This document shows positions 8,845 to 61,100 of a stretch of DNA of 64,000 nt, in pieces. Source of the stretch: Mangifera indica (taxonomy: Eukaryota > Streptophyta > Magnoliopsida > Sapindales > Anacardiaceae); contig NC_058145.1 in the NCBI RefSeq assembly GCF_011075055.1, positions 2,182,887-2,246,886 of the forward strand. Direction: 5' to 3'. The first letter of the stretch is position 1. Every line of letters starts with the position of its first letter. The position numbers were made by a program, and so were the translations under genes. The notes under the pieces were generated by a model that saw nothing but the letters and a program-made list of their open reading frames with translations, did not search any database and was not told the DNA's origin.

Positions 8845-11800
8845 ATGGCTTTGCAATGGTGGAGATTTTTCCCATTTTCTCTTGTTGCCATTTTCATCTT
8901 CCATGGCTTCTGTCTCTCAGAGAAAGGTAGGAGAACCATTTGTTTTACTTCTTATTTGTTCATGCATGTTTCTTTTTTTAAGAACCTGTCTGACTTTACC
9001 AGATAAGTAAACCAGGGAGTGGACAAGTGATTCAGGTTTCGGTCTACATTTAATGAAAGCTTTATGTTTATAATAAACAGCTCCATACTACACGTTTGTC
9101 AAAGAAGCAACTTCAGCTCCGCCGATTTCATATTACGATTACATAATCGTCGGTGGAGGAACCGCTGGCTGTCCCTTGGCTGCAACTCTCTCGGAGGATG
9201 CGGTGGTTTTAGTCTTGGAAAGAGGCGGCTCACCGTACACAAAACCAAACGACATAGGCAACTTCGCCACCACTCTGTCGGACACTTCCCCGACATCGCC
9301 AGCCCAACAGTTTATCTCCGAGGACGGCGTGTACAACGCCCGTGCCCGTGTTCTCGGCGGCGGGAGTGTTCTCAACGCCGGATTCTACACGCGAGCTGGT
9401 GAAAATTACACCAGAAAAGCCGGGTGGAGGGAAGATTTGGTGAAGCGTTCTTATGAATGGGTGGAGAAGAAGGTGGCCTTTGAACCACCGATGTTACATT
9501 GGCAATCCGCCGTGAGAGATGGGTTGATTGAAGTTGGAGTGTTGCCGTACAACGGCTTCACGTATGATCATATATATGGGACGAAGGTCGGTGGAACTAT
9601 TTTTGACAGCGATGGCCATCGACACACTGCCGCCGATTTGCTAGAATATGCTGATCCTCAGAAGATTACGGTTTATTTGCATGCCACCGTGCAGAAAATC
9701 TTGTTTACAACGAAAGGTAAATCATATTTTTCTCTTATAATAATGCATGCACTGTTATACCGGCAAACCGACGGGTGGGGGTGCCGATTCATTTCTCACT
9801 ACTCGTATCCAATCTTCCGAGTATGAATCAATCCGAAGATTACTCGCTCATGTTAATTTCTAACTACATTTTTATTTGTATTATTTTAACATATATTATA
9901 TAATTTTTAATATTTTTCTACTCTATGATAAATGTTTTATTGAAAAACAAAAATTTATATTAAATTATAAAAATATTTTTTATAAATTTGAAGAATTTAA
10001 ATATTGTATATAAAATAAATATCTATAACAAAATGTTTAATATTTAAATTCTTTAAATTTATTTTTAACATAATAAATTATTTAATTTAAGAATAAATTT
10101 GAAGTTATTTCATATTAAAAAACAACTTTGTGATGGGATATTGAAGGAGGAGGAAAATATTAGCAAGAAAGAAATAATTGATGACCCGAGGGTATACCCG
10201 ATAGTAAGCAAAAATCCATTATCTTCGAATGCAAATTCAAACAAATATAAGTTTAAAAATCTAAAATCTATACCTGTTTTTATATGGATAACCATGAGTA
10301 ACCCACCGATTTTACCACGTTTATATTCGGCTCTGATAGATTGTTCGTGTTCTTCCATTTTGATTGATGAAGGGAGACGACCGAGGCCAGAAGCTCATTG
10401 TGTGGTATTTCAAGATGCGTCAGGAGGGACCCATAAAGCCTGCTTAATCAAAAGCTTCGGCATGAGTGAGATAATTTTGTCGGCCGGTGCAATCGGGAGT
10501 CCGCAGCTGCTGATGCTGAGCGGCGTTGGACCTGCCAAGCAGCTTCGGCAGCACGGCATCGACGTGGTGGTGGACCAACCGTTAGTGGGGCAAGGGATGG
10601 CCGATAATCCGATGAACGCCCTTTTCATCCCTTCGCCACTGCCTGTTGAGGTCTCACTGATTCAAGTCGTCGGCATCACAAGGTTCGATAGCTACATCGA
10701 AACAGCCAGTGGTTTGAGCTTCGCTTACTCTTGGGCTCAAAGGCTTTCTGCAGACTATGAATTGTTCTCTAATCAGGTTTTCTATGAGTTGTTTCTGCAG
10801 CCAGTGGATTTTGTTTATTTTATATTTTTTAAAATCACCTGTTTTACACCTAAGATTTGATAATAATCAACCCATAAGTTTAAAAAAATCAATTTTCCAT
10901 CCATATGTTAAAATTAACTTTTAATTGAAGAATTAGATGCTATTTATCTATTTTTTTTTAATATTGAAATAATAGTGTATTGTGGGCAACATTATTTTTT
11001 TAAAACTTAACTCAAGGTCCATGTATATTTTTCTTATTTCATTTAAGAAATTATCATATTCACTCTATATATTTTAAAAATATAATATAATATTGATAGT
11101 TTATGATGTAATATTTATATTATTTATTTATTGAGTATTTTAGAATGTAATTTTTAATTTTGAAAATATTAAGGAGTATATTGAAATTTTAAAAATACCT
11201 CAAACTTTTTTAAAATTTCAAAACCCTTTTAAAATTTTATTAACACTTTTAATATTTTTAAAAATTAAATTTACTTCAAACATATGATTATATGTCACTA
11301 ACACTTTTATATATATTTGTATTAATAATATTTATTATTTTTAATTAAAATTAATAGACATTAGAATATAAAATTATTTATGGGAGTAAAGTGTCATTTA
11401 TCTTAAGAGTTTTTTTGTGTAAAAAAGAAAAGAGAATTTGTTAAAAAATTTAAGAGATGGATGAAATATTTAATTTTCAAACTTAACCATTGGAATAATA
11501 ATTTCACAAACCTTGGGTGGGAATTTAGTTAGAAATTGATATTGCAAATTAACTTTTGGGAAAAAAAAAATTCATATATGCAGAGTAGACGACAGCCGTC
11601 CCTGGTGACGCCAGAAGCAATGGCGAGCGCTCTTGAAACCGTGCAATCCTACATGAATGGAACAATAAGAGCTGGAGTTATCGTTGAGAAGATAATGGGT
11701 CCAATCTCCACCGGTCATCTTGATCTCCGATCCACTGATGCCGACGATAACCCTTCTGTAACTTTCAACTATTTTCAGGATCCTGAAGACTTAAAACGAT

Positions 11801-12195
11801 GCGTCCAGGGGATGCAAATCATCATCAATGTCGTCAATTCCAGAGCTCTGGCAAAGTTTCGTTACAGTGACATGCCTATTCAGGGCCTCTTAAACTTGAT
11901 AGTGAACGTCCCCACGAACCTGAGACCGAGGCACCTCAGCGCGGCAGTTTCCCTGGAACAGTTTTGCAGAGACACTGTGATGACCATTTGGCATTACCAT
12001 GGCGGGTGTCAAGTTGGAAGAGTGGTTGATGATAATTATAAAGTTCTTGGCATCGACGCTCTCAGGGTTGTTGATGGCTCTACTTTTTTCAACTCTCCTG
12101 GAACCAATCCTCAGGCTACTGTGATGATGCTTGGAAGGTACATGGGATTAAGGATTTTGCAGGAGAGAAAGAGACTGCCCTCTGGGAAGAAGTAG
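8845..12195 (+). CDS. HOTHEAD-like FAD-dependent GMC oxidoreductase
   Basis: Four coding exons: 8845-8926, 9081-9716, 10373-10776 and 11584-12195, all GT-AG with consistent phase, giving 577 residues, close to the usual length of HOTHEAD-type proteins. Residues 1-25 form a hydrophobic signal peptide, so the product is probably secreted. The FAD dinucleotide motif VGGGTAG lies at residues 51-57. GMC signature 1 ([17 protein letters not shown]) and signature 2 ([15 protein letters not shown]) are both present. The C-terminal catalytic region has the expected His in [11 protein letters not shown] and the NPQAT motif. In the family, HOTHEAD is linked to fatty alcohol oxidation for cutin and organ separation, and mandelonitrile lyases share the fold; the substrate here cannot be read from sequence. 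Exon 4 and its 3' flank were duplicated downstream (pseudogene at 14008-14618). Confidence 0.88.
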
Positions 12196-12707
12196 AAGAT
12201 GAAGATGAAGCTTTTTTGGGGGAAGAAGGAAGTTGATTGAATGTTACTGTGTGCATTCATTCAGGGTCTGCTTGAGTAAAAATATGTTAAATAATTTCCT
12301 TAGAACCTGAAATTTTTATTTACAGATGCCTTTGATTTCCCTTTTTCCGGGCCTTTTTGTCGCCTTTTAACAAAGAGAGTCAGCTCAGCAGTCAAATTCT
12401 CTTTTTAAAGTGAATTAAAGGGTGATGAGATGATCATCATAATTTCGACATGCTTACTTGGTCCCATTCTCAAAGGTTTTAAGGCACAAGACTTAAAGCA
12501 ACATCACTCATATTTGTTAACGAAGAATCATTACGTAATCAAAATCAGAAGAGGCATTAGATATAATTTTATATATAAATAATAATATATTATAATATAA
12601 TTAAAAAATTAAAAAAGTAAATATAAAATAATATTTTATCATATAATGATATATTGATATTTGTGTATATAATATTATTGTATAAATATTTATATTTTTA
12701 AAACTAA
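11457..12707 (+). repeat. Segmental duplication, copy A (HOTHEAD-like exon 4 and 3' flank)
   Basis: From the end of intron 3 through exon 4 and about 500 bases of 3' flank, this matches the pieces 13877-14726, 20759-21015 and about 22493-22655. In exon 4 I count about 15 substitutions and one 1-bp deletion over 612 bases, roughly 97.5% identity. Copy A lacks both insertions present in copy B. Confidence 0.85.
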
Positions 12708-13084: not shown

Positions 13085-13870
13085 AAAGGGAGCATTTTGA
13101 TATTTGATAATGAATTAGGAGTTAAATAAAATGTTAAAAAAATATAAAGGGCATTTTGATATTACACAATATATAAAATATTTAAATAACATGTTAAAAA
13201 TAGATAGATATACTTTCATACAAAACAACATACAATAGTGTTAAATAAAATGTTAGATAATTATAGGAGATAAATAAAATGTTATAAAAATATGAGGGGT
13301 ATTTTGATATTAAACATTATAAATGAAATGTTAGTAATAGATAAATACATTTTGATGCAAAACAACATATAAATGTGTTAAATAAAATGTTATATAATTA
13401 TAGGAGGTTAAAAAAATGTTAGAAAAATATGAGAATATTTTGATAATTAAACATTTTAAGACGGTTTTAAATGATATGTTAAGAGTAGATAAATGTATTT
13501 TCATATAAGACAATATGTGAGGGTGTCATATAAAATATTAGATAATTATAGAGGTTAATTGTAATATTAGAAAATACGGGGAGCGTTTTGATATTAAATT
13601 TTTTTAGACGGTTTTAAATGACATATTAGAAATAGATGATGCATTTCGAGAGAACACAATATTTAAGGGTGTTAAATGAAATGTTATATAATTTAGAGGG
13701 TTAAATAAAATGTTTAAAAAATATGGGGTGTTTTGATATTAAACATTGCAAGAATATTTTAAATGAAATTTTAGAAATAGATAGATATATTTTCATATAA
13801 GACAACAAATGAGAGTATTATATGAAATATTAGATAAATATAAAGGGTTAATAAAATTGTGAAAAAATGT
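13085..13870. repeat. Tandem array with a unit of about 145 bp
   Basis: The block TTTTGATATTAAAC recurs near 13151, 13302, 13436, 13584 and 13729. Each copy is followed by AAATGAAATGTTAG-, AAACAACATAT- and AATGTTAGATAATTATAGGA-like blocks in the same order. There are about five diverged units of 134-151 bp, ending next to duplication copy B. No coding potential. Confidence 0.75.
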
Positions 13871-14007: not shown

Positions 14008-14618
14008 AGTAGACGACAGCCGTCCCTAGTGACGCCAGAAGCAATGGCGAGCGCTCTTGAAACCATGCAATCCTACATGAATGGAACAATAAGAGCTGGA
14101 GTTATCGTTGAGAAGATAATGGGTCCAATCTCCACCGGTCATCTTGATCTCCGATCACCGATGCCGACGATAACCCTTCTGTAACTTTCAACTATTTTCA
14201 GGATCCTGAAGACTTAAAACGATGCGTCCAGGGGATGCAAACCATCATCAATGTCGTCAATTCCAGGGCCCTGGCAAAGTTTCGTTACAGTGACATGCCG
14301 ATTCAAGGGCTCATAAACTTGATAGTGAACGTCCCCACGAACCTGAGACCGAGACACCTCAGCGCGGCAGTTTCCCTGGAACAGTTTTGCAGAGACACTG
14401 TGATGACCATTTGGCATTATCATGGCGGGTGTCAAGTTGGAAGAGTGGTTGATGATAATTATAAAGTTCTTGGCATCGACGCTCTCAGGGTTGTTGATGG
14501 CTCTACTTTTTTTAACTCTCCTGGAACCAATCCTCAGGCTACTGTGATGATGCTTGGAAGGTACATGGGATTAAGGATTTTGCAGGAGAGAAAGAGATTG
14601 CCCTATGGGAAGAAGTAG
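14008..14618 (+). pseudogene. Duplicated, frameshifted exon 4 of the HOTHEAD-like gene
   Basis: This is a near-identical copy of the last exon, including the preceding acceptor-like ATGCAG. A single-base deletion near 14156 (GATCCACTGATG in the parent, GATCACCGATG here) shifts the frame after DLRS and creates a stop at 14184. The original frame is open again from about 14170 to the native stop at 14618. There are no copies of exons 1-3, so a functional protein is not expected. It could only matter as an alternative terminal exon spliced from the upstream gene, and the frameshift argues against that. It keeps the GMC C-terminal motifs HYHGGCQVG and NPQAT. Confidence 0.9.
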
Positions 14619-16597: not shown

Positions 16598-19500
16598 ATG
16601 GACTCCAAAATTGACGTATTGACTTCAAAGGCTGATGAAGGAGATATGTGTTTGGTGGATAGTGCAACAACGCACACAATTCTTAAGGAAAAGAAATTTT
16701 TCTTATCTTTAGCATTAATTGAAGCTAAAGTAACTACCATATCAGGATCAATTGATCTGATAGAAGGCTCCGGAAGAGCCACAATTATGTTAAACAATGA
16801 GACCAAATTAAGCATCAATGATGCATTATATTCAAGTAGATCCAGAAGAAATCTACTGAGTTTTAAAGATATAAGAAAAAATGGTTATCATCTTGAAACC
16901 ATGAGTGAAAATGGTGCAGAATTCATCTGTATAACTAGTAATACCTTCGGAAGAAGGCTTATACTAGAAAAATTACCTGTCTTACCATCTGGATTTTATT
17001 ATACAATCATAAAGACAATTGAATCCTACATAGTATCGAACCAGAAGTTCATTGATCCAAAAGCATTTATGCTTTGACATGATCGTTTAGGCCACCTAGG
17101 ATCTACAATGATGTGTAGGATTATTAAAAATTCATATGGATATACATTACATAATCATAAAATTTTATTGTTTAGTGAATAATTTTGCACCGCCTGTTCT
17201 CAAGGCAAATTAGTAATAAGACCATCCCCCTCTAAAATTGGAGGTGAATCCTCATCATTCCTACAAAAGATTCAAGAGGATATATGTGTACCCATTCATC
17301 CACCAAGTGGGCCATTTCGTTATTTTATGGTCTTAATTGATGCATCTGCATGATGGTCTCATGTTTGTTTATTGCCTACCTAAAATGTTGCATTTGCTAA
17401 ACTGTTAGCATAAATTATCAAATTAAAAGCACATTTTGCAGATTATTCGATCAAGTCAATACGGCTAGATAATACTGGTGAATTTACATCCAAAACATTT
17501 GATGATTATTGCATGTCTATGGGGATTGAGGTTGAACATCCAGTCCCGCATGTCCACACACAGAATGACTTAGCTGAGTCTCTTATCAAACGACTCCAGG
17601 TAATTGCACGCACTTTATTATTAAAAAGTCAATTACCTACTTCTATGTGGGGACATGTTATATTACATGTTGCAGCGTTAATTCGCTTGCGACCTTCTTC
17701 TTATCATCAATATTCTCCCCTACAATTGGTTCTTGGTTACCAACTTAACGTATCTCATTTGAGAATATTTGGTTGTGCTATATATGTCCCTATTGCGTCC
17801 CCTCAACACACAAAAATGGGACCCTAACGTTGTTTGGGAGTATATGTTGGATATAATTCACCATCCATTATCAGATATCTGGAACCATTAACAGGTGATC
17901 TTTTTACTACACGATTTACAGATTGTCACTTTGATGAGACAACTTTCCCATCTTTAGGGGAAAAGAAAATGCCTCCTCAAATTAGGCATGAACTTATTTG
18001 GTATGTACCTACAATGTCTCATTTAGATCTTCGCATATCCCAAAGTGAAACTGAAGTTCAGAGGATAGTGCGATTACAAATTATTGCCAACCAAATGCCT
18101 GATGCATTTGTTGATATGGCAAAAGTGACAAGATCACATGTTCCAGCTGCTAATACACTAGCAAGAATCAATGTGATTGCTGAATAGTCCATTCGAGCCA
18201 TGACTGATCCATCTACCTCACGCCAGAAGCATGGTAGATCTGTTGGATCGAAGGACACTGTTTCTCAAAAAAGAAAGGCAAATAATCAAACAAATATTTC
18301 TCCAGAAGAGGTTATGGTCCCTGAAGACACTCAAGCCCCAGAAGTGGCATAAGCCCCTGAAGTGGCACAAACCCCTGAAGTGGCACAAACCCCTAAAGTG
18401 GTACAAAATCCTGAAGAACAGGAAAATGAGAATATTGAAATATCTTTAAATTATGTTCATATACAAGAAATGTGGAATCATGAAACAATTATAGTTGATG
18501 AAATATTCTCATTTGTAGTAGCTACTGAAATTCTGAATGATGATAATTTTGAATCACGTACTCTGACTGAGTGCAAACAAAGACATGATTGACCTAAATG
18601 GGAAGAAACAATTCAAGCAGAATTAGCTTCTCTAGCAAAACGTCAAGTGTTTGGGCCTGTAGTTTCAACACCTCAAGACGTACAACCTGTTGGATATAAA
18701 TGGGTATTTGTGAGAAAAAGAAATGAGAAAAATGAAATTGCTAGATTTAAAGCCAGACTTGTAGCTCAAGGCTTTTCCCAAAGACCCGGTATAGACTTTT
18801 ATGAAACAAATTCACCTGTGATGGATATAATCACATTCAGATATTTAATCAGTTTAATAGTCTCTGAAGGACTGGATATGCGTCCAATGGACGTAGTTAC
18901 TACTTATTTGTATGGAAATTTAGATGCTGAAATTTATATGAAACTCCCTGAAGGATACAAATTGCCTGAAGCAAAAAGGGTCAATTCAAGAGGCTTGTAC
19001 TCAATTAAATTACAACGATCATTGTATGGATTAAAACAATCCGGATGTATGTGGTACAATCACCTCAGTGAATATTTGAAAAAAGAGGGTTATGTGAATG
19101 ACCCTATATGTCCATGTGTCTTTATTAGAAGGTCAGAATTGGGATTTGCTATTGTAGCAGTTTATGTTGATGACATGAATTTAATTGGGACTCCTGAAGA
19201 GATCTCAAAAACTGTTGAATATCTGAAAAAAAAATTTGAAATGAAGGATTTGGGGAAAACAAAATATTGTCTCGGCCTGCAGATCGAGCATAATTCAAAT
19301 AGAATACTTATCTATCAATCAGCGTATATTGAAAAATTATTAAAACGCTTTAATATGGATAAGACTTATCCTTTGAGCACCCCAATAGTTGTTTAGTCTC
19401 TTGATCCAAAAAATGATCCATTTCGTCCTAAAAAAGAAGATGAAAAGATACTTGGTCCTAAAGTACTATATCTTAATGTCATTGGAGCCTTATTATATTT

Positions 19501-20753: not shown

Positions 20754-21042
20754 CTTGCAACCTGAAATTTTTATTTACAGATGTCTTTGATTTCTTTTGT
20801 TTTTGTCCTCCATGCGTGCGGCCTTTTTTTTGGGCCTTTTTGTCGCCTTTTAACAAAGCGGGTCAGCTCCGCAGTCAAAATTCTCTTTTTAAAGTGAATT
20901 AAAGGGTGATGATCATCATAATTTCAACATGCTTACTCGGTCCCATTCTCAAAGGTTTTAATGCACAAAACTGGAAGAAACATCGCTCATATTTGTTGAT
21001 GAAGAACCATTTTATAGGGATATTAATTAAAATAATTTTTTT

Positions 21043-21076
<34 letters not shown>

Positions 21077-21093
21077 TTAGTCAATTTTTTTTA

Positions 21094-22061
21094 GGGATAT
21101 TAATTAAAATTGATAAAAAAAATTTTACGTAAATCTTTTTAGACAAATGTACAATGGTTTTACTTTTATAGGTAAATTTATTTTTAATTTCAAAAATACC
21201 GTCTCCCAGCTTATTGTGTCACTCCCAGTGATTTACGTCACGCTCGATCACCTAAAACTTTCTTAACATATTTGATAATTTTTTATTTGAATTATCACTA
21301 ATTCACGTTTTAAGGATTAAAAACATACTTAAAAATTGATAAATTTTTGTTTAGGTTTCAAATACAGATAGTAATGAAAAAATAGCATAGATGAGGAGAA
21401 TGATAAATGCGAACTGATGCTATATCACTGTGTGTATGAAGTGTAAAATGTGTGTAGGGTGCATACAAGATGTGTGCAGAGTGCGTGCAAGATGTGTATA
21501 GAATACGTACAGGGTGTGCGGTGTGTAAAAAATATAAATAAATATATATATTTATATATAATAATATAATATAATATTTAAAAATTATTATTATTATTAT
21601 TTATTTATATTATATTAAATACTATAATATTTAATAATATTATAATATTTGATATAATATAAATAAATAATAATAATAATAATTTTTAAATATTATATAT
21701 ATATATTAGTTATTGGCTCACCATTTTCCAAGAGCCATGCACCCCAAGCATCAACTCTTCACTTGCGTATCCTAACGTACCCTACGCACCCTGCACGTAC
21801 TCACGCACCATGCAAGCATCCATGCACCTTATACGCACCTACACACCCTGTACGCACCCTACACGCACCTTGTATGCACTTACGTACCATTTACGCCCCC
21901 ATACATTGTGATATGCACACAGAAGTTGCTGAAAGTGACGTAATAAGCTGGAGAGGATATTTTTGGAATTAAAAGTAAATTTGCTTATAAAGGTAAAACC
22001 GCTGTACGTTTGCCTAAAAAGGTTTAAGCGGACAAAATTTTACCGATTTTAATTAATATCT
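21094..22061. mobile_element. Foldback-type element with inverted minisatellite arms (inner)
   Basis: Terminal inverted repeats start GGGATATTAATTAAAATTG and extend about 110 bases; the right arm inverted shares TTTTTAG-CAAA-GTACA-GGTTTTAC and AAAAATA blocks. Inside each terminus is a short GTGTGCAGGGTGCGTAC-like minisatellite in opposite orientation (about 21440-21525 and 21765-21905), and the centre is a long AT palindrome. The flanks are T-rich (aatttttttta / aattttttta), so the duplication is plausible but of low complexity. The architecture is the same as the larger element at 30001-33322. Confidence 0.7.
21569..21698. repeat. AT-only palindrome, arms of about 65 bp
   Basis: The two halves are reverse complements with only about two mismatches, centred near 21633. 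Almost every base is A or T. It forms the core of the inner foldback element. Confidence 0.85.
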
Positions 22062-22655
22062 AATTTTTTTATTATATAAATATACTTAATTTTTAATTTG
22101 ATTTTATTTAAAAAATTCTAAAATTTGATATTAATTAGATAGATTGGTTGGGTCGACCAATTTGACCAATCAATTTTTAAAAAAAAATATGGTTAGTTGG
22201 ATGTTTGATCGACTGTCTAACCAGCTGGTCAATCACCTAACCAAATCTTCTCACTATCAAAGTTGTAAGAAAATTTTATATTTTCATCTTATTTTATCTT
22301 ATATCTCAACATTGATTGGATGAGTGAATGAGTTTTGTATCTTGATTGAATGAATTTATACTTGGTTGAATGAGTACAAGATCTAAGACTATTTTTGATA
22401 TTTTATGTTTTACACTATATATGTATAATAGGAAAAAAAGTAGCTATATATGTATACAAGAGAGAAAAATGGACTATTTTAATTAATATCTCCCATTATA
22501 TAAGCATGAGTATTATTACGTGCATAAATAATGATATATTGTTTTATAATTAGATAGTTAAAAATTAAATATAAAATAACAATCAATTATATGATGTATA
22601 TCATTGTTTGTATACATAGTATTATTGTATAAATATTTGTGTTTTTAAAACAGGA

Positions 22656-30000: not shown

Positions 30001-30350
30001 GGGATATTAATTAAAATAGATAATTACTTTCCCGTCTGAATGTTTTTCGGTAGCAATTCTTATTTTTTATCTTTTTAAACAAATTATATTTTTCATTCTA
30101 AAAATACCCCTCATTTAATTTCTCAACGCTTACCATAGTTTTTCGTTAATTAATTGCTTATATTTCACGATACGCATTAAGATTAAGTTATCTGTAATGA
30201 ATAAAATCTATAGATTGAAAAACAGATTAATTTTTTATAAAATAATTGATTGTTATATATAAAAAATAATGGATATATCTTAAACGATACGTTTTGCTCA
30301 AAACGGTGCATTTTCTAAAAAACGTTGTGTTTTCCTCTCAAACAGGTTGC

Positions 30351-30770
30351 GTGAAGAGGTGAGGGAATTTGGAAAGGGGTGCGGGTGTGGGAGCAGGAAT
30401 GGATGCGTTAAGAGGTGCGAGAATTTGAAAAAAGGTGTAAGAATTTGGAAAGGAGTGTGGGAATCTAGCAAGGGGTGCAGGTGCGGGAATTTGAAAAGGG
30501 TGTGAGAATTTGGAAAGGGGTGCGGGAATTGGTGCGTTAAGAGGTGCAAAAATTTGAAAAAGGGTGTGGGAAGGGGCACAGGTGCGAGAATTTGAAAGAG
30601 GGTGTGGGAAGGGATGCGGGAATTTGGAAAATGGTGCGTGGAAGGGTATGGTAATTTCTAAAAGGGTGCGACAAGCATTGCAGGTGCGTGGAAGGGTGCG
30701 GCAACTCATTGTGGCGTGCGTGGCACGGTGCGTTAACTCATTGTGGCGCGCGTGACGCGGTGCGTTGAGT
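30351..30770 (+). repeat. Left minisatellite arm (G-rich)
   Basis: More than a dozen variants of GGTGCGGGAATTTGGAAAGG and shorter GGTGCG-type units. Open frames across it on the other strand encode low-complexity HPFPNS-type peptides, which are artefacts of the repeat. Confidence 0.85.
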
Positions 30771-31139
30771 GAGAAAATTACTAATAACTATTCGACATGC
30801 AAATCAAAACATCAACCAAACCACGAAGATCGACAGTCTTGCTTAAACCAAAATTACTCACCCTTGATTCACTGTCAGGAAACGTCATCGGAAAACCACG
30901 ACAATGTCGTTCGAGTTATCTGCGTCGTCTCAGGTACATATTTATTGTTAACATTGATTCAGCTTTGGGACATTGGATGAGATTTAGGTTTTCATTTCGT
31001 TGGATGTCGATTGGTTGATTAAAGTTTAGATTATGCGATTGATTTTGCTAGTTTGACTGTATTGGTTTAGAATATGTGATTGATTTTGCTGGATTGATTA
31101 TGTTGGTTCGTCGTTATGGGAGGATGACATGTTATTTTG

Positions 31140-31670
31140 GTCGCGCCGATTTCCTTTTGCATATCGTTAACACATTCACGCACACATTCACACCTACAGA
31201 CCACCATTGACACCTTCACGACCATTCCCCTTCATACGCTCACACACCCCTTAACATTTTCCCGCACCCCTTCACACTTTCCCACGCCCTTTCATATATT
31301 GACGTACCCCTTAACACTTCCACGCACTTTTAACGCATCCACACACCCTTTAACATTTTCCTGCACCTGTTCACACTTTCTCTCACCCTTTTACACTTTG
31401 TCTCTCCCTTTCACATGTCGATGCACCCCTTTGTACTTCCACGCACCCTTTCATATTTTCCCGCACCCCTTCATACTTTCCCGCACCTTTTCACGTATCG
31501 ACACACCCTTAACGCATCCACACATCCCTTCACATTTTCTCTTACGCGTTCACACTTGGCTACACCTTTTCACACTTTGTTGCACCCTTTCACATGTTGA
31601 CGCACCCTTTTGCACTTCCACGCACCCTTTAACATTTTCCTGCACCCTTCACACTTTCATGCAACCACAA
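31140..31670 (+). repeat. Internal minisatellite array (C-rich)
   Basis: Units such as CGCACCCTTTCACACTTTCC and CACGCACCCTTTAACATTTT are repeated about 20 times. Composition differs from the two arms (ACATTTTC rather than AAATTCCC spacers), so it is a separate expansion. The frame is open for 183 codons only because unit lengths are near multiples of three. Confidence 0.8.
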
Positions 31671-31689
31671 TATTCATCTTCTTCTTGAA

Positions 31690-32317
31690 GGTGAATATCA
31701 TTTCTTGATAAATCATTTGTTTGATAACAATCTTTAGGTGTACCCTATATTGGTTCTGGGCCTCTTTCACCATGTGCAAAGTCTTGAGAAAAAGGATTTC
31801 AATCAACATCGTTCTCAATACCATCATGATCATGATTTATATTTATCCTGCTACTTCTTAGTACACTTTCTGATTATGAATATATGTTATCCATAGAATG
31901 AATTTCAGTTGATGGATTTTGTTGAATCCCTTGATGAGTCTCTTGATGAATCTCTTGATCTGGTTGTAAATATTGCTCATAATTATCTCGAAATTCATTT
32001 TGCTGTATAACCACTTCAAGAAATAAGGGAGATCTTTTGCGAGACTTACATAGCTACATCATCATTCAAATATCATAATCATCTTTCAATAAATAAGGCA
32101 AATTGCTAAACTCTGTTGGATTTGACATATAAATTTTAATTTCATTAAAACTTTGATTGATACCTAAACGAGAACATACTTCTTCCATAAATCCTTCGTA
32201 ATTGATTCTTCTATTGACTGAAAATAATTTCTGAAATCCACCGACATATTTTAGGTTATTACCCTCTTCGTTGTGCCATTCTCCACCAAATCTACGCATG
32301 AACATCACTCCTACCAT
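31690..32317 (-). pseudogene. Relic resembling the N-terminus of a MuDR-type transposase
   Basis: From ATG at 32317 on the minus strand an 83-codon frame reads RRFGGEWHNEEGNNLKYVGG, then ISYDE-like NYEGFMEEVCSRLGI and the acidic LLKDDYDI. This is the pattern of the N-terminal PB1-like domain of plant MuDR-type MULE transposases (a GGEW-YVGG start, a strand with Val/Leu-Gly, and a DDxD end). After a stop the same frame continues with CKSRKRSPLFLEVVIQQN, as expected after that domain, and then a Glu/Gln/His-rich stretch with more stops to about 31690. The catalytic DDE core, SWIM zinc finger and rest of a roughly 700-residue transposase are absent. The assignment is by motif pattern; a profile search would settle it. 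Confidence 0.6.
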
Positions 32318-32689
32318 TCTTTTCGATCGATGGATTCAAGAACAAAAATATGAGGTTAGTTTAGAATAAAATAGATTTGTACTATTGAAAATAAGTGAAG
32401 AAAGAAAAAAATATTTGTGAAATAATAATAAGGATTTCTTTCTGGAAGAAGTAAATAATTGTAGTTTTATTAATATTGCAATAAATACTTTCATCTGCTG
32501 CAAATCTACCATATCTAAATATGAATGAAGAATTAAATTCTCTTCTTATTAAAATTAATTATTAAATTTTTTTAATAAAGAGGTTTTCATTACATATGAT
32601 AAGTTGTGCATGCATGCACACGTCCACGCATTAGGGTTTTCATGCACCCGTTTGATTATAATGCAATGCACCAATCCACGCACCGCCGC

Positions 32690-33000
32690 ACCCGTTGCCA
32701 TACCCTTTTCCAAATTCCCGCACCCCTTTCCAAATTCCCTCACCCACACCCTTTTCCAGATTCCCGTATCCCTTTCCAAATTCCCGCACCCCTTTCCAAA
32801 TTCTCTCACCCACACCCTTTTCCAGATTCCCGTATCCCTTTCCAAATTCCCGCACCCCTTCTCGCACCTATTCTCGCACGCACCCAGCACCCATTCCCTT
32901 AGCACCCCGCACCCCGCACCCCTTTCCGCACCCTTTTCCAAATTTTCGCACCCCTTAATGCACCCCTTCCGCACCCTTCCCGCACCCCTTCACTCAACCG
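32690..33000 (-). repeat. Right minisatellite arm (C-rich on + strand)
   Basis: TTTCCAAATTCCCGCACCCC units and CACCCACACCCTTTTCCAGA variants; an inner block of about 66 bp is repeated (compare 32720-32785 with 32786-32850). It is the inverted counterpart of the left arm. Confidence 0.85.
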
Positions 33001-33322
33001 TTTGAGAAGAAAACACACCGTTTTGAGAAAAAAGTATCGTTTTCGATATATCCATTATTTTCGATATATAATAATTAATTATTTTATAAAAAATTAATCT
33101 GTTTTTCAATCTATAGATTTTATTTATTATAGATACCTAATCTTAATACGTATTGTGAAATGTAAACAATTAATCGACGAAATACTATGATAAATATTGA
33201 GAAATTAAATGAGGGGTATTTTTGAAATAAAAAATATAATTTACTTAAAAAGGTAAAAAATAAAAATTATTATCAAAAAATGTTTAGGTGAAAAAATAAC
33301 TGTTTATTTTAATTAATATCCC

Positions 33323-33766: not shown

Positions 33767-34143
33767 TCTTTTCAGCACAACTTGCGAAAAGATAAGAGTG
33801 AGGGCTGTCTTCGTTTTCAGGGTTTGTTTCTCTCTCTATATCTCTTTCTGTGCTGTAAATTCTATAATTTCGTTTAAATAAAGATAAGAAAATCTGTGTT
33901 CTAATGTCCTTTACTCTCCTAATCTATCACGGTATTGGGAAAAAATAAAAACTCAATCAAACTACTTCAATTTCTCTGTTCCTTGTAAAATTGTTTTAGG
34001 GTTTCCACTTTTATTCCTCCTTTAATTCCTGGAAATTCTCATCTTTCTGGATGATTCTTTGTTGATTCTTATTGGGTTTTCATCGATCTTGTCTGGGTTC
34101 TGTTTATTTTTCTGGGGTTATTTCATTAATTCAGGTTCCCGCC

Positions 34144-35058
34144 ATGGACTCCGATTATCAAGAGCCACGTTTAGACGAAGTTAACAGCAATGAAGGACAG
34201 AGCAACGCCACCGCCACCAGGTCCGCCGCTAACGTTTCTCCATCAGAGACGTCAATCATGGACCTATCCGAATCAACGGTCCACTTGAAAGAAGAAGAAT
34301 TAACAGACTCAGAAAACCAAAATTTCAATCAATCTTCTTTACCTGTAGGCCTTGTACAACGCTCGCTTGTTCCTAAACGGCCCTCCAAAGATCGACACAC
34401 AAAAGTCGAAGGCCGCGGCCGTAGAATTAGAATGCCCGCCACGTGCGCCGCCAGGATTTTTCAATTAACTCGCGAATTGGGTCACAAGTCCGACGGAGAA
34501 ACTATAAGATGGTTACTTGAACACGCAGAGCCAGCAATTATCGAAGCAACTGGTACTGGCACAGTCCCCGCCATCGCCGTTTCCGTTAACGGCACGTTAA
34601 AAATTCCGACAACTTCTGCGGCGAAACCCAACAGTGAAGAAGAGTTACCAAGGAAACGGCGTAAACGACCATGTAACAGCGAGTTCATCGACCTTAATGA
34701 ACATAACCAAAGCTCTGCCTCTTCAGGGCTCGCACCAATTACCCCAATCAGAACGACTGCTTCACAAACTTTCGTTCCTTTTTGGCATATGGGCACATTT
34801 ATGTTACCAGCAGCTCATACTGGTCTCGTTAATGGCGGCTCTAAACAGCCTCATTTGTTGGCTCCAGTTTTTAATCTTCAGCCTAGACCCACTTTGAATT
34901 TTGTTTCTCAGGATGGTGCATTGGGTTCATCAAGTGCTGCTGCAAATGTTAGTGCTACCAATACTTCTACTAGTAGTTCTAGTACTACTGCTACTCATAT
35001 GCTTAGAGATTTTTCTCTGGAGATTTATGATAAGAAAGGAGCTTCAATTTCTGGGTAG
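34144..35058 (+). CDS. Class I TCP transcription factor (TCP9/TCP19-like)
   Basis: 304 residues in one exon. The start at 34144 is chosen because the upstream in-frame codons cross a likely 3' splice site (TTAATTCAG). The TCP basic helix-loop-helix domain spans about residues 80-136: [20 protein letters not shown] basic region, then helices ending [17 protein letters not shown]. The shortened basic region is the class I (PCF) form. Cys101 corresponds to the conserved cysteine that makes class I TCP DNA binding redox-sensitive. Downstream come [17 protein letters not shown], a basic RKRRKRP nuclear signal (about residues 184-190) and SSGLAPITP, typical of the TCP9/TCP19 subgroup. Class I TCPs bind GTGGGNCC-like sites and act in growth, leaf development and hormone responses. 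Exact orthology needs a tree. A serine/threonine-rich tail ends the protein. Confidence 0.9.
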
Positions 35059-45340: not shown

Positions 45341-47015
45341 TGTTAAAGTATGTGCCCTAGAGTCAATTATATTTGACATTTGTAATTGTGATTTTATATT
45401 AATTATTCATAAAGGATTTATTATTATTCAATTCATATATCAATTAATTATGTAATCATATGAATAATATGTTCATAGAACAATAGAACTATGATGAAGG
45501 GGTCAGATGACTGATTGTAAGAATCCTATGCACACACTAAGCCGTCATTCTAGAAATATCTGTAATCTTAACATTACAATTAAATAAGGTTCGTGTAATG
45601 ATGATGGAATTATTATAATGTTAAGCAACTCCACCGAAATGTGGTAACAATTCTCACATATTGAAGCTATACAACTTGGTGTAATATATAGATGTATGTT
45701 GTAGACGTGTTCACTAGACTAACTTGACTAGAGGATATCCATATGAATGATTGCTTTATATCTATGGAATAAATCCTATGAACTCCACGGGTGCATGTAA
45801 TCTTTTGACTTGAGGTAGCCAAATTGTCTTATGTAAGGATCGGTATAAATTGATGTTATCTAATATGCCATTGTAATTAGTGTAACCATAAAGGTAATGA
45901 TTAGACATATTATGAGATACATGAAGATTATGGTTGATCAATAAAGGAATTATTACTCCTGAACATGAGAAAATATATCCCAAATGAGAATACTGAATAA
46001 CATCCATGATCACTTAAATTTATGACCATATTAGGGATTAAGTGGTAGCATGATCCACGTTGGTTATTAATGTGTATTAGTTCATATCAAAGAATTACTA
46101 AAATAAACACACTTCTATGTCTTAACCTCGAGAGATATTGGTTGATGAAAGAATTGAATTACACGTAATTATAATATCGTAAAGGCTTAAAAGATTTTTA
46201 TTAACACTTTTTCATCCGAGTGGCCATGATACCTTGCTAGAGACCAATCTTAGTCTATGTCTGGATTTGACCCAAATCTAGATACCGTTGACACAATGGA
46301 GAGCTTATCAGTCATAAACATAAAAGAGTTGATTCAAACTTAGAGGTAAAGATTATTTGTTGATAATTCTAGTGTTTTGGGATGAGAGAAAGACTATAAA
46401 TAGACTAGACTTGTCTTATTGGATAGAAAGCCTAGATTAACCATGCCTTGACCAAGTGCATAACAATGCACCTTGCTAGTTGGCTATGCACCTTGCTAGT
46501 TGGCTATGCACCTTGTTGAAAATAGTAGTAGCTGTCTCATATAGTAAAACTAGTCGTGCACATGTTTTAGAGAGAGCTGACCATTCCACATAAGTGGAGT
46601 CGATCATGCCATTTATCATAACTTTATTTAAAAGTGTGCATTCATGAAACTTGGGACATAGTGTTTTATATCCTTAAAACTTTAGCCATCATTATCTCTT
46701 CTTCACTCGAGAACATAATATCCAATTAAGAGCTTTAGTAGCCTCTCCGATTAGATTATCCTCATTTCTTGTTCATGCTTTGCATAGATACTAAGACACC
46801 ACCTCTTGAGGGTTGGATAACATACTATCTCTAAGCCATGTGAAGTTTGAAAGAGCCTTTAGCGCATGTGTCATTGTAAAGCAACCGATGAGTATTTATG
46901 CATGTTTATAAAATCTAAGTGCACAATGAGGTATCTGGGTAATGGTTTTTCCCATTTGATTTTTAAATTTCAATTTCACTGCTTTATCGGTTATTGATGC
47001 CTTGAAAACCTAACA
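45341..47015 (+). mobile_element. Solo-LTR-like insertion in the copia protease
   Basis: 1675 bp starting TGTTA and ending TAACA. It interrupts the minus-strand protease exactly: joining the flanks restores VTS-DL across the gap. The flanking 5-mers caaaa (45336-45340) and cagag (47016-47020) are a 5-bp duplication if two G-to-A changes are allowed, as expected for methylated repeat DNA. No coding or primer site inside, so a solo LTR is the simplest reading. An inverted partial relative is at 49671-50234. Confidence 0.65.
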
Positions 47016-58100: not shown

Positions 58101-61100
58101 AAATGACGCCTTTTTAATCAGTTTATATAAAAAATTTATGGGTTTGTGAGTTTGATGTGCTGAACTCTTCTAAAACTTGAGCTTGAAAATATTTAACTCT
58201 TAAACTCAAGCTCAAGCCCGAGTTTGCTTGAATCGAACTTATTTTCGAACTCAAATAAGTTCGGCTTGAATCTTGTCCTAGATTAGCTACTTTGACATGT
58301 AATTTAGTTAACTAAAACTCTATTGAAATGCAACAGTTAACAATAGCCATGAATGGTAAAATAGTCCATTTTACAAACGAAAAGGAGGTTAGAAATTCAT
58401 CAAATGATAAAACACATTAAGCATTTTAAATTATATTTGACTTTTATATTTATGTGTTGATGACATCTCGCATTTGAATGCTTCAGAATGCAAAAGACAA
58501 TCGATCGATACTTCGAATACAAAAAAGAAGTGCTAGCTAACAAGCCTGAAACGGAAGAAGGCATGCAGGTTAGAAATTCATCTTTAATTAAGTAAATTAT
58601 TCTGTGATGTCTTTAAGCACAATTATCAATTTTATTGTGCATTATGAATAAGACATGCAAAATAATCCTTTCTGAGAGTAGTTCCTTCATGGGGAAGCAG
58701 TAGTCATAATCTCCTGTAATGTAGGGATAGAGCAGTGTATTCTAATTCTCTATAACTTTTATTTATGCCTATTAACCAAGAAACTCTAAAATTCACTTAA
58801 TGTCAAAGTAAAGATGATCAGTAGTAACAAATAAAGTTGATTATTGGACCATAAAAAATTGTGGAACATCTAATTATATTATTATTTGCTGGCTAAAAGA
58901 CTTCCCATCCAAGGTTTGCTGAAATAACAAATTCCATCCTTTAAATTTCAAAAAAACTAAAATCCCACCCATCGGTTAGTGAATTTCATTAAATGAAAAG
59001 GTAGAAAGATTTATTTGTACAGGTTTTTCTATTTTATCTTTTTTTCATTGTTCTTATGATTTTCTCTTTCCCCCATATTAGTTTTGTTTTTCCTTTTATT
59101 TTTTCTATTTTTCCTTTTCAAAACTTTAGGAGGCAAATTACAATGTTTAAAAAATATTAGGGGTGTTGAAAAAATTTTCCAAGGGTTTTAGAAATTCAAA
59201 AAAGCACAGAAATGTTTTTGAAAATTTTGAAATTTCAATGTCTCTTTGAAGTATCAGAAAATGACAATTATATCTCAAGTAACTTACTAAAATGCAATAT
59301 TTTAAAGTTGGTTGGAGTTGATATTTTCTAAGAATATTAGTGGCAATTTTGTAATTTTAATGAAATGAAAGAAAAGTCATTTATAGAAAAACTTAACAAA
59401 TTTACTAATAGAAGTGGATGATAGGTGATAATTTAACTTTTTAAAACCTGAAAGTTGGAAACTTCTTGTTTCATCAAACCTGCTGGGAAATAGTCATTTG
59501 GCCTTATTTGCAATGTATAAAGTCACTTATGAGCGTCTGTACAACTAGATTACTATTGTTGAACAATAAGTCAATATTGAATGTGATGGTGATGCTTTCA
59601 ATATGTTCATTCTGAATGTTTGAATGATGTAGCTTTCTGAAAGCTTGTAATACCTTATCATTAATCACATCCATTTTAATGGTTTTTCTTGCAAAAATTT
59701 TCCACATGGAGCAAATGCATGCAGCATGATATAGCAAACATGGTGAAGGAGATTGAGAGAATTGAAGTTTCTCAAAGGTTAGTAATTAAACTGATACTTG
59801 CCCTACAATAGCAAACATTGGCACATAACATTTTCGTTGAAGTAGTAGATTTTTTCTGAGGTTTGAATTATGTTGGTGTCTCAGAAAGCTTTTAGGGAAA
59901 GATTTGGATTCGTGTAGCGTTGATGAACTCCTAAATATTGACGGTCAGCTGAAAAGAAGCTTGCGCAGCATTCGAGCGAGAAAGGTAATCAATAGGCTGA
60001 GCTAGCCAAATGCTAGTTGTTGGGAAATTGTTGATTGACAGCTAGTAACCTAGGCAATTACACTTTTTTTTCAGGCTGAGCTATTTAAGGAGAAGACAGA
60101 GCAACTAAAAGCAAAGGTAACAAGTTCTTTATGTAAGATTTAATATTTATAACCCAAATAAAACCATTCAATCTTAATTTCGTAGGATTTACACATATAG
60201 TATAAAATACTGAATTAAAATTTTAGGATTATAAGAATATTTAAAACTTTATAATAGAATCTGAATTTGTAAAGCTTTCGAAATTACCTGTATCTAGTGA
60301 TTGGTTTTTTGCTTCTGAAACCTTCTAGAATGATAATTTTCAGTAAGTAAAACTATACTGTATAAGTTTCGCCGAAGGGGCCTAATCAATATATAGATGG
60401 TTATTAGATCTCATCAAAGGTCTAATGAACCTTAAAACTCATAATAGTCTATCTACTCAAATCATAATGTTTAAGTATATTGGACTTATCTTTATTATCA
60501 TTTAAGCTTATCTGTAAACTGTTATTAGATTATTTAATTATCTGGTTTTGTTAAACCAATTTTATAATTAATGTTAACTGACATTAAGAAATTTTATAAC
60601 ACTCTTAATAAGGATTTGGATGTCTTCATACACTTTTTGCTTTGTTTGATATGCAGGAGAAACTATTACTGGAAGAGAATGATAGGTTAAGTTTAAAGGT
60701 GAAAATTTGAACTCTTCATTTATCTATTACTCAAATGATAATACTGGAGAAACTATTAATAGTCTATCTACTCAAATCATAATATTTAAGTATATTGAAC
60801 TTATCTTTATTATTATTTAAGTTTATCTGTAAACTGTTATTAGATTATTTAATTATCCGATTTTGTTAAACCAATTTTATAATTAATGTTAACTGACATT
60901 AAGAAATTTTATAACACTCTTAATAAGGATTTGGATGTCTTCATACACTTTTTGCTTTGTTTGATATACAGGAGAAACTATTCCTGGAAGAGAATGAAAG
61001 GTTAAGTTTAAAGGTGAAAATTTGAACTCTTCATTTATCCCCTTTAAGCAAAAATCAAACTTGTATTTTTTTCCCAAAAGGGACATGAATCACACAATAC

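Follow-up and report, generated by a model that had tools for sequence, protein, structure and literature searches.

What kind of element carries GC-rich minisatellites of opposite orientation inside its two inverted ends, and what might such arrays be for? The question is raised by positions 30001-33322 of a 64,000-nucleotide stretch of the mango genome (Mangifera indica, contig NC_058145.1, positions 2,182,887 to 2,246,886 of the forward strand), here called the window. We found that this window copy belongs to a mango family of Mutator-like elements (MULEs) with long foldback arms, of which it is a non-autonomous member with an internal deletion. As full-length copies of the family carry DUF1985 and Ulp1 domains, the arrays look like target arrays of a protein and not like incidental expansions. 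The best explanation, which the sequence comparisons make fairly probable in our view, is that the minisatellites with their core GGTGCG lie within the long inverted repeats as arrays targeted by an anti-silencing factor that the element itself encodes.

Structure of the window element

The element is composed of the following parts:
30001..30316, plus strand: left terminal inverted repeat, starting GGGATATTAATTAAAAT (end-to-end alignment, genome matches)
30346..30764, plus strand: array A, left-arm minisatellite, 12 GGTGCG on the plus strand (alignment, motif count)
30904..30933, plus strand: short frame running up to a GT, with similar frames in the full-length copies C1, C6 and C16 described below
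about 31164..31663, minus strand: array B, third array, 6 GGTGCG on the minus strand, akin to A and C
31655..31670: junction of an internal deletion of about 5.6 kb relative to the full-length element
31661..32317, minus strand: transposase relic, N-terminal PB1-like region and linker with stops inside (protein homology)
32606..33005, minus strand: array C, right-arm minisatellite, 13 GGTGCG on the minus strand (alignment, motif count)
33008..33322, minus strand: right terminal inverted repeat (end-to-end alignment)

Both termini read GGGATATTAATTAAAAT, inverted relative to each other, and the end pair 30001-30316 / 33008-33322 is 85% identical across 316 columns, with a local alignment score of 395, whereas 200 dinucleotide shuffles gave no more than 42. 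The long terminal inverted repeats proposed by an earlier sequence-only reading are therefore real. The same reading had placed G/C-rich minisatellites of opposite orientation just inside the ends. Arrays A and C indeed match each other in inverted orientation with a score of 134 (12 on the other strand), which none of 200 dinucleotide shuffles reached, and in each arm the G-rich strand runs from the element end inward. In 200-bp windows the GC content was 0.465-0.585 in the arrays and 0.13-0.245 at the two element ends, in agreement with the contrast reported at the time. Only the description of the third array as unrelated had to be given up, since the core GGTGCG is common to arrays A, B and C and the scores of A-B (55 versus a shuffle maximum of 40) and B-C (47 versus 37) exceeded each of 200 dinucleotide shuffles. 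Block shuffles (200) were more demanding: the A-C score of 134 compared with at most 133, while the A-B score was reached by 6 and the B-C score by 35 of the 200, so that array B and the arms have only the repeat unit in common. In the 64-kb window, all 22 occurrences of CGCACCC (0.61 expected) fall inside this element and a second one 8 kb away. G-quadruplex formation was considered as an explanation of the arrays and rejected, as the window holds three canonical motifs, all in the element, and shuffles of A and C give likewise. Used as a protein query, the minisatellite frame had no match with an E of 1 or lower among 59 candidates.

The relic matched a mango MULE protein (P0002) at E 7e-19, which confirms the MuDR-type transposase N-terminus that had been suspected, and its homology stops at the edge of array B. 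A Pfam scan of the relic gave PB1 below the cut-off and a PDB search five weak matches, the best of them Ceg4 at E 0.001. A search with P0002 yielded full-length copies, among them C16:8851874-8861174, with which the reversed window copy is colinear: one end with its array, the leader with the transposase N-terminus, a gap, array B and the other end. Leader and transposase N-terminus agree at 87% between the two copies over 1076 bp, after which about 5.6 kb are missing from the window copy. This colinearity identifies the window copy as an internal deletion and array B as ancestral.

Copies across the mango genome

We searched the 391-Mb mango assembly with the left end of the window element and obtained at least 40 scored matches (692 candidates), the element's own two ends included. 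The 38 matches outside the window element, which establish that its termini are shared with other loci, were grouped into 33 other places, and 20 of these were examined. Two inverted ends were present in 18 of the 20, delimiting elements of 1.4-3.1 kb, so both arms belong to one element and not to two different ones; a single end each was found at L022 and L025, and at L010 one terminus itself was not located. As two probable allelic or haplotig pairs (L012/L013 and L021/L027) are among the 18, they represent 16 independent loci. Exact target duplications of 9-10 bp flank seven of the 18 paired loci (in L015 one end is shifted by one base), the others being partial or uncertain.

Arrays of GGTGCG/CGCACC occurred in all 18, with at least one GGTGCG in each left half and at least three CGCACC in each right half. 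The motif was found 391 times in the 34.6 kb of these elements versus 11 times in 127.4 kb of flanks. With the window copy added (19 elements), GGTGCG was counted 189 times in left halves and 33 times in right halves, CGCACC 171 times in right halves and 29 times in left halves. This constant position inside the ends, oriented by arm, would suit arrays that are transposase-binding sites, with the DUF1985 gene unconnected to them. Such a role has been proposed for internal repeats in other elements whose ends are repetitive. We nevertheless regard this alternative as unlikely, because the full-length copy C1 also has long arrays deep inside, in both orientations, where a transposase site is not needed, and because different arrays occur in families with 73-74% transposase identity to P0002.

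Three full-length copies were read:
C16:8851874-8861174, 9301 bp, with ATCATTCAC on each side (exact 9-bp duplication)
C6:13247509-13258247, 10.7 kb, with TTTTATAGA flanking both ends
C1:23891081-23903854, 12.8 kb, with TTACTTAAT flanking both ends

Full-length copies with 9-bp duplications, which the sequence-only reading had recommended looking for, thus exist, and the family shows the duplications of 9 bp (8-11) that characterise MULEs at the seven loci as well as in C16, C6 and C1. The transposase points the same way, both through the match of the relic to the mango MULE protein and through C1, which has PF10551, PF00872, PF03108 and SWIM above cut-off. Long inverted repeats in which internal tandem repeats make up much of the element, the hallmark of foldback elements, are present in the window element and in the family, the arms of C1 included. 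Taken together, paired inverted ends, 9-10 bp duplications and a MULE transposase relic bear out a plant foldback MULE family.

At the window copy itself, no target duplication was found: the best agreement was 6/9, at chance level (among 3000 random pairs of window places, with wider slack, 3 reached 9/9 and 63 reached 8/9). This would be expected of a chance or composite structure, made of two unrelated elements or of an assembly artefact. Such an origin has next to no probability, as the same structure recurs elsewhere with exact duplications and the window copy is colinear with a full-length one.

Age and mobility

The C6 and C1 copies are younger than the C16 copy. The arms of C1 and C6 are 99-100% identical over 280 bp, and those of C1 agree at 95.4% over 1695 bp, with the arrays within them matching. 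The left 2.5 kb of copies C1, C7, C8 and C14 are 99.68-99.84% identical while their flanks differ, which points to recent mobility.

By comparison, the window copy fits an old element that decays mostly by transitions, as methylated DNA would, its two ends differing by 38 transitions and 7 transversions. Transitions and transversions were 65:22 and 84:12 in the elements of the two probable allelic pairs and 18:13 and 38:28 in their flanks, and the mismatch rate of the elements lay above that of the flanks. Within GGTG[CT][GA] words, the CG of the motif was intact in 84% (C1), 80% (C6), 43% (C16) and 56% (window copy). The excess of transitions and the loss of CG are consistent with methylated, decaying copies. 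Homogenisation between the arms of old copies was considered and not seen, as arm identity within elements (0.850) was about that between elements (0.839-0.864) in a comparison of 250 bp from 16 elements, with L010, L012, L021 and element 2 (see below) left out.

Genes of the full-length copies

On the plus strand of C1, a 705-amino-acid frame encodes MULE, Transposase_mut and MuDR domains; in another frame SWIM exceeds the cut-off and a zinc-finger match falls short of it. The minus strand carries a DUF1985 frame (PF09331) and an Ulp1 C48 frame (PF02902), both above the Pfam cut-off; the two frames that separate them have no Pfam match. DUF1985 and Ulp1 lie opposite the transposase in all three full-length copies read. 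All four C1 minus-strand frames are matched in C6 and C16, DUF1985 and Ulp1 at 77-83%, whereas C1 and C6/C16 agree at only 56-64% in the frame adjoining DUF1985, which recalls the variable parts reported for VANC. The domains of the second gene typical of VANC/KIU, DUF1985 and, in KIU, Ulp1, are therefore present in C1, C6 and C16; the window copy is without them, the four C1 minus-strand frames giving a best E of 0.5 there, with no DUF1985 or Ulp1 found.

We infer that the DUF1985 and Ulp1 frames form one gene, of which the frame 30904-30933 would be the first exon. The counterpart of array B lies upstream of the DUF1985 frame in full-length copies; in C1 it stands between the short GT-ending frame and the DUF1985 frame and would be intronic.

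DUF1985 was found in at least 150 places of the mango genome (150 scored of 1608 candidates). An opposite-strand DUF1985 lay within 9 kb of 28 of 41 transposase places, which is to be read as a rough lower bound, since the 41 places were hand-picked, the 33 DUF1985 places used had been selected from the 150 by eye, and C16 was scored as a miss though it has the domain.

Two side observations concern the same sequences. In C1:23891081-23903854, positions 11725-12624 (joined coordinates of L036/L037), before the right arm, match their own reverse complement at 68% and constitute another palindrome. P0039, a mango model named as a disease resistance protein, contains a piece of the transposase family (26% of the query covered, with 39% identity) and is perhaps a chimeric model or a transposon insertion.

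Motif arrays and related families

In the full-length copies, the inverted repeats continue into arrays of a unit of about 20 bp with the core GGGTGCG. C1 holds 131 copies of the motif, 130 outside its six open reading frames (1.43 expected) and one inside (0.75 expected), spaced mostly 20, 40, 60 or 80 bp apart. Its deep internal arrays, between the DUF1985 frame and the right arm, consist of GGTGCG at 9824-10488 and CGCACC at 10719-11618 (joined coordinates). The enriched 6-mers of the window element's subfamily (subfamily 1) include CACCCC, GCACCC, CGCACC, GGGTGC and GGTGCG.

Two related families, those with transposases 73-74% identical to P0002, likewise have an opposite DUF1985, and other GC-rich arrays inside a similar terminus: TTTGCGCGG in L050 and AGTGCGCGG in L051, with one copy per family; L051 also holds five GGTGCG. 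In both arrays TGCG occurs mostly 9-11 bp apart. Successive TGCG were 8-12 or 18-22 bp apart in 31/43 cases in C1 and 13/30 in C6 (shuffle maximum 5), and in 12/18 in L050 and 11/19 in L051 (shuffle maximum 8 in both). Sasaki 2022 reportedly found motif sequence, density and helical periodicity to matter.

The second element of the window belongs to a sister subfamily (subfamily 2) and comprises:
21017..22492: the same termini once more, as an outer pair enclosing element 2, flanks CCATTTTATA / CCATTATATA, 9/10
21094..22062, strand not set: element 2, inner pair of ends, flanks AATTTTTTT, 9/9, of low complexity
21431..21530, plus strand: left-arm array, degenerate, no exact GGTGCG
21746..21925, minus strand: right-arm array, 5 GGTGCG on the minus strand

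The stretch 21017-22492 is a nested or tandem-end copy around element 2. About 110 bp of end sequence are common to element 2 and the window element. The sister subfamily has at least 41 matches including element 2 (739 candidates, 40 scored). Six of its copies were examined, with 9/9 duplications in two, 8/9 in three and 7/9 at shifted ends in one; two of the 8/9 copies, both on C2, have identical duplication letters and may represent one duplicated locus. The top enriched 6-mer in seven copies of this subfamily is GGTGCG.

Could the arrays be neutral minisatellites grown by slippage, with nothing real beyond the family and its foldback form? The gaps, up to 60 bp long and located between the element ends, by which the two probable allelic pairs differ are compatible with this, as are young arms that are near identical, arrays too, and the fact that minisatellites survive only outside frames. 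We nevertheless judge it improbable: the core is present in 18/18 paired loci, the same core is the top or among the top 6-mers in two subfamilies whose units differ by eye, and a 10/20-bp phasing is seen in C1, C6, L050 and L051, though the phasing is partly a consequence of tandem repetition.

A possible anti-silencing system

Our preferred reading, that the arrays are targets of an anti-silencing factor, would work as follows. If the DUF1985 and Ulp1 frames form one gene, its product would be a VANC/KIU-type factor, predicted to bind the GGTGCG arrays, both those of the arms and the internal one, and to lift silencing from any array-bearing copy. The transposase would then move the element via the shared termini, which would result in 9-bp duplications. 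Deleted copies would retain arms and arrays because both would be needed, the ends for the transposase and the arrays for the factor. By analogy, the arms may be docking sites for the anti-silencing system. Judged by its sequence, the family has the anatomical parts of a VANC/KIU-type system and may work like one.

Several points weigh against this. The likeness to VANC/KIU proteins consists in shared Pfam domains only, and a non-coding location of the motif is expected for any minisatellite, as reading frames exclude minisatellites. On the list used, 13 of the 41 transposase places are without an opposite DUF1985, although C16, one of the 13, has the domain. The left array of element 2 matches the arrays of the window element weakly, its score with array B being reached by 20 of 200 shuffles. 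Arrays of subfamily 2 are short and degenerate, and in L047 of that subfamily neither the TGCG count in the arm nor the phasing (3/4 successive TGCG at 8-12 or 18-22 bp) lay above the shuffle maximum. The 4.4 kb covered of L049, which belongs to a more distantly related mango family, hold no GGTGCG. The lack of a duplication at the window copy also belongs here, and VANDALs, the elements with which VANC is associated, are described with degenerate inverted repeats (PMC10398659), which the mango family does not have.

A bolder proposal, to which we would give rather less than even credence, is that the ends of a mango MULE lineage came to combine two functions: long inverted repeats would serve the transposase, and phased copies of a short CG-containing word inside them would recruit the element's own DUF1985-Ulp1 anti-silencing factor. 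Sister families would have swapped the word (GGGTGCG, TGCGCGGTT, AGTGCGCGG) as the factor diverged, and arm-only copies would ride along with both sites. If true, this would speak against the need of VANC-type elements to lose inverted repeats in order to escape RNA-directed methylation, and it bears on the coexistence of long inverted repeats and VANC-type genes. It would join foldback elements with repetitive arms and sequence-specific transposon anti-silencing, which are separate topics in the literature covered, and plant minisatellite-armed foldback elements could be read as anti-silencing target arrays. Word-protein pairs open to testing would then exist in a tree crop that is not one of the Brassicaceae, and several of its copies are young and near identical.

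Comparison with known systems

The FARE elements of Arabidopsis (Windsor and Waddell 2000) reportedly have long modular inverted repeats and 9-bp duplications, and are said to comprise small arm-only copies as well as large copies with several genes including a transposase.

Arabidopsis VANDAL MULEs with VANC/KIU resemble the mango family in combining a MULE transposase with a DUF1985 gene, to which Ulp1 is added in KIU (PMC5735166, PMC10398659, PMC13317346). VANC proteins consist of DUF1985 and variable parts, and VANC21 binds a short motif that lies in VANDAL21 introns and in its non-coding DNA, intergenic as well as terminal; tandem repeats are common among VANC targets, which differ between families (PMC5735166). 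KIU (Kaonashi) is a VANC gene with Ulp1 and is said to act on KIU-bearing elements (PMC13317346, citing Sasaki 2022). Both systems have a short motif, tandemly repeated in terminal and intronic (in mango, putatively intronic) non-coding parts, that varies between related families, yet the VANDAL motifs are YAGTATTAY or AGTTGTCC/AC and that of mango is GGGTGCG. Inverted repeats of VANDALs are degenerate, perhaps for escape from RNA-directed methylation (PMC10398659), whereas the mango arrays lie inside long inverted repeats, near-perfect in young copies. We do not file the family as VANDAL because it has kept these repeats (316 bp in the window copy, 1.7 kb at 95% in C1).

Grapevine, melon and rice have MULEs bearing ULP1 that are likewise similar, with Ulp1 downstream of the transposase in either orientation; types with and without terminal inverted repeats are known. 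Arms made of tandem repeats, as in mango, are not described for them, the terms tandem repeat, foldback, subterminal and minisatellite being absent from the main text (PMC2528002). Tm1 Mutator/Foldback elements of root-knot nematodes share a MULE-type transposase, 9-bp duplications and inverted ends made mostly of tandem repeats of about 14 bp in variable number, but they differ in host and repeat unit and have no Ulp1/DUF1985 partner in the passages covered (PMC3169594). The doubled termini of element 2 recall MULEs with multiple tandem terminal inverted repeats, in which, however, whole repeats are copied and not short motifs (PMC3310237). MuTAnT MULEs of Medicago are also short, MULE-derived foldback copies, but target TA microsatellites and have no motif arrays in the part covered (PMC4486113). 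In the open-licence literature, judged by title or abstract start, we found no mango MULE family, nor a foldback MULE that combines DUF1985-Ulp1 with motif arrays. Within that scope the family may be undescribed, as the sequence-only reading supposed; Sasaki 2022, to go by its title, was a survey of eudicots, and a prior mention is possible.

Surroundings and other features of the window

A host element around 30001-33322 was considered and rejected, as the flanks show AT-rich similarity only. Rfam and tRNA scans of the 64-kb window gave no matches, and the terminus pattern was not found in viral contigs (0 found). A TCP transcription factor frame (34072-35058, Pfam TCP) starts about 750 bp beyond the element end at 33322, and the element probably sits in its promoter region.

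Elsewhere in the window, 11536-12195 and 14235-14618 both represent the C-terminal part of a GMC oxidoreductase gene, resemble each other closely and have a 148-bp tandem array (13116-13867) between them, an arrangement that suggests a local duplication. Copia-type retrotransposon frames occupy 16598-19396, with RVT_2 at 18647-19393. A perfect 20-bp tandem repeat of ATGCACCTTGCTAGTTGGCT, which is not the element's motif, extends over 2.5 copies at 46466-46515, and a 315-bp tandem duplication (96%) lies at 60435-61039.

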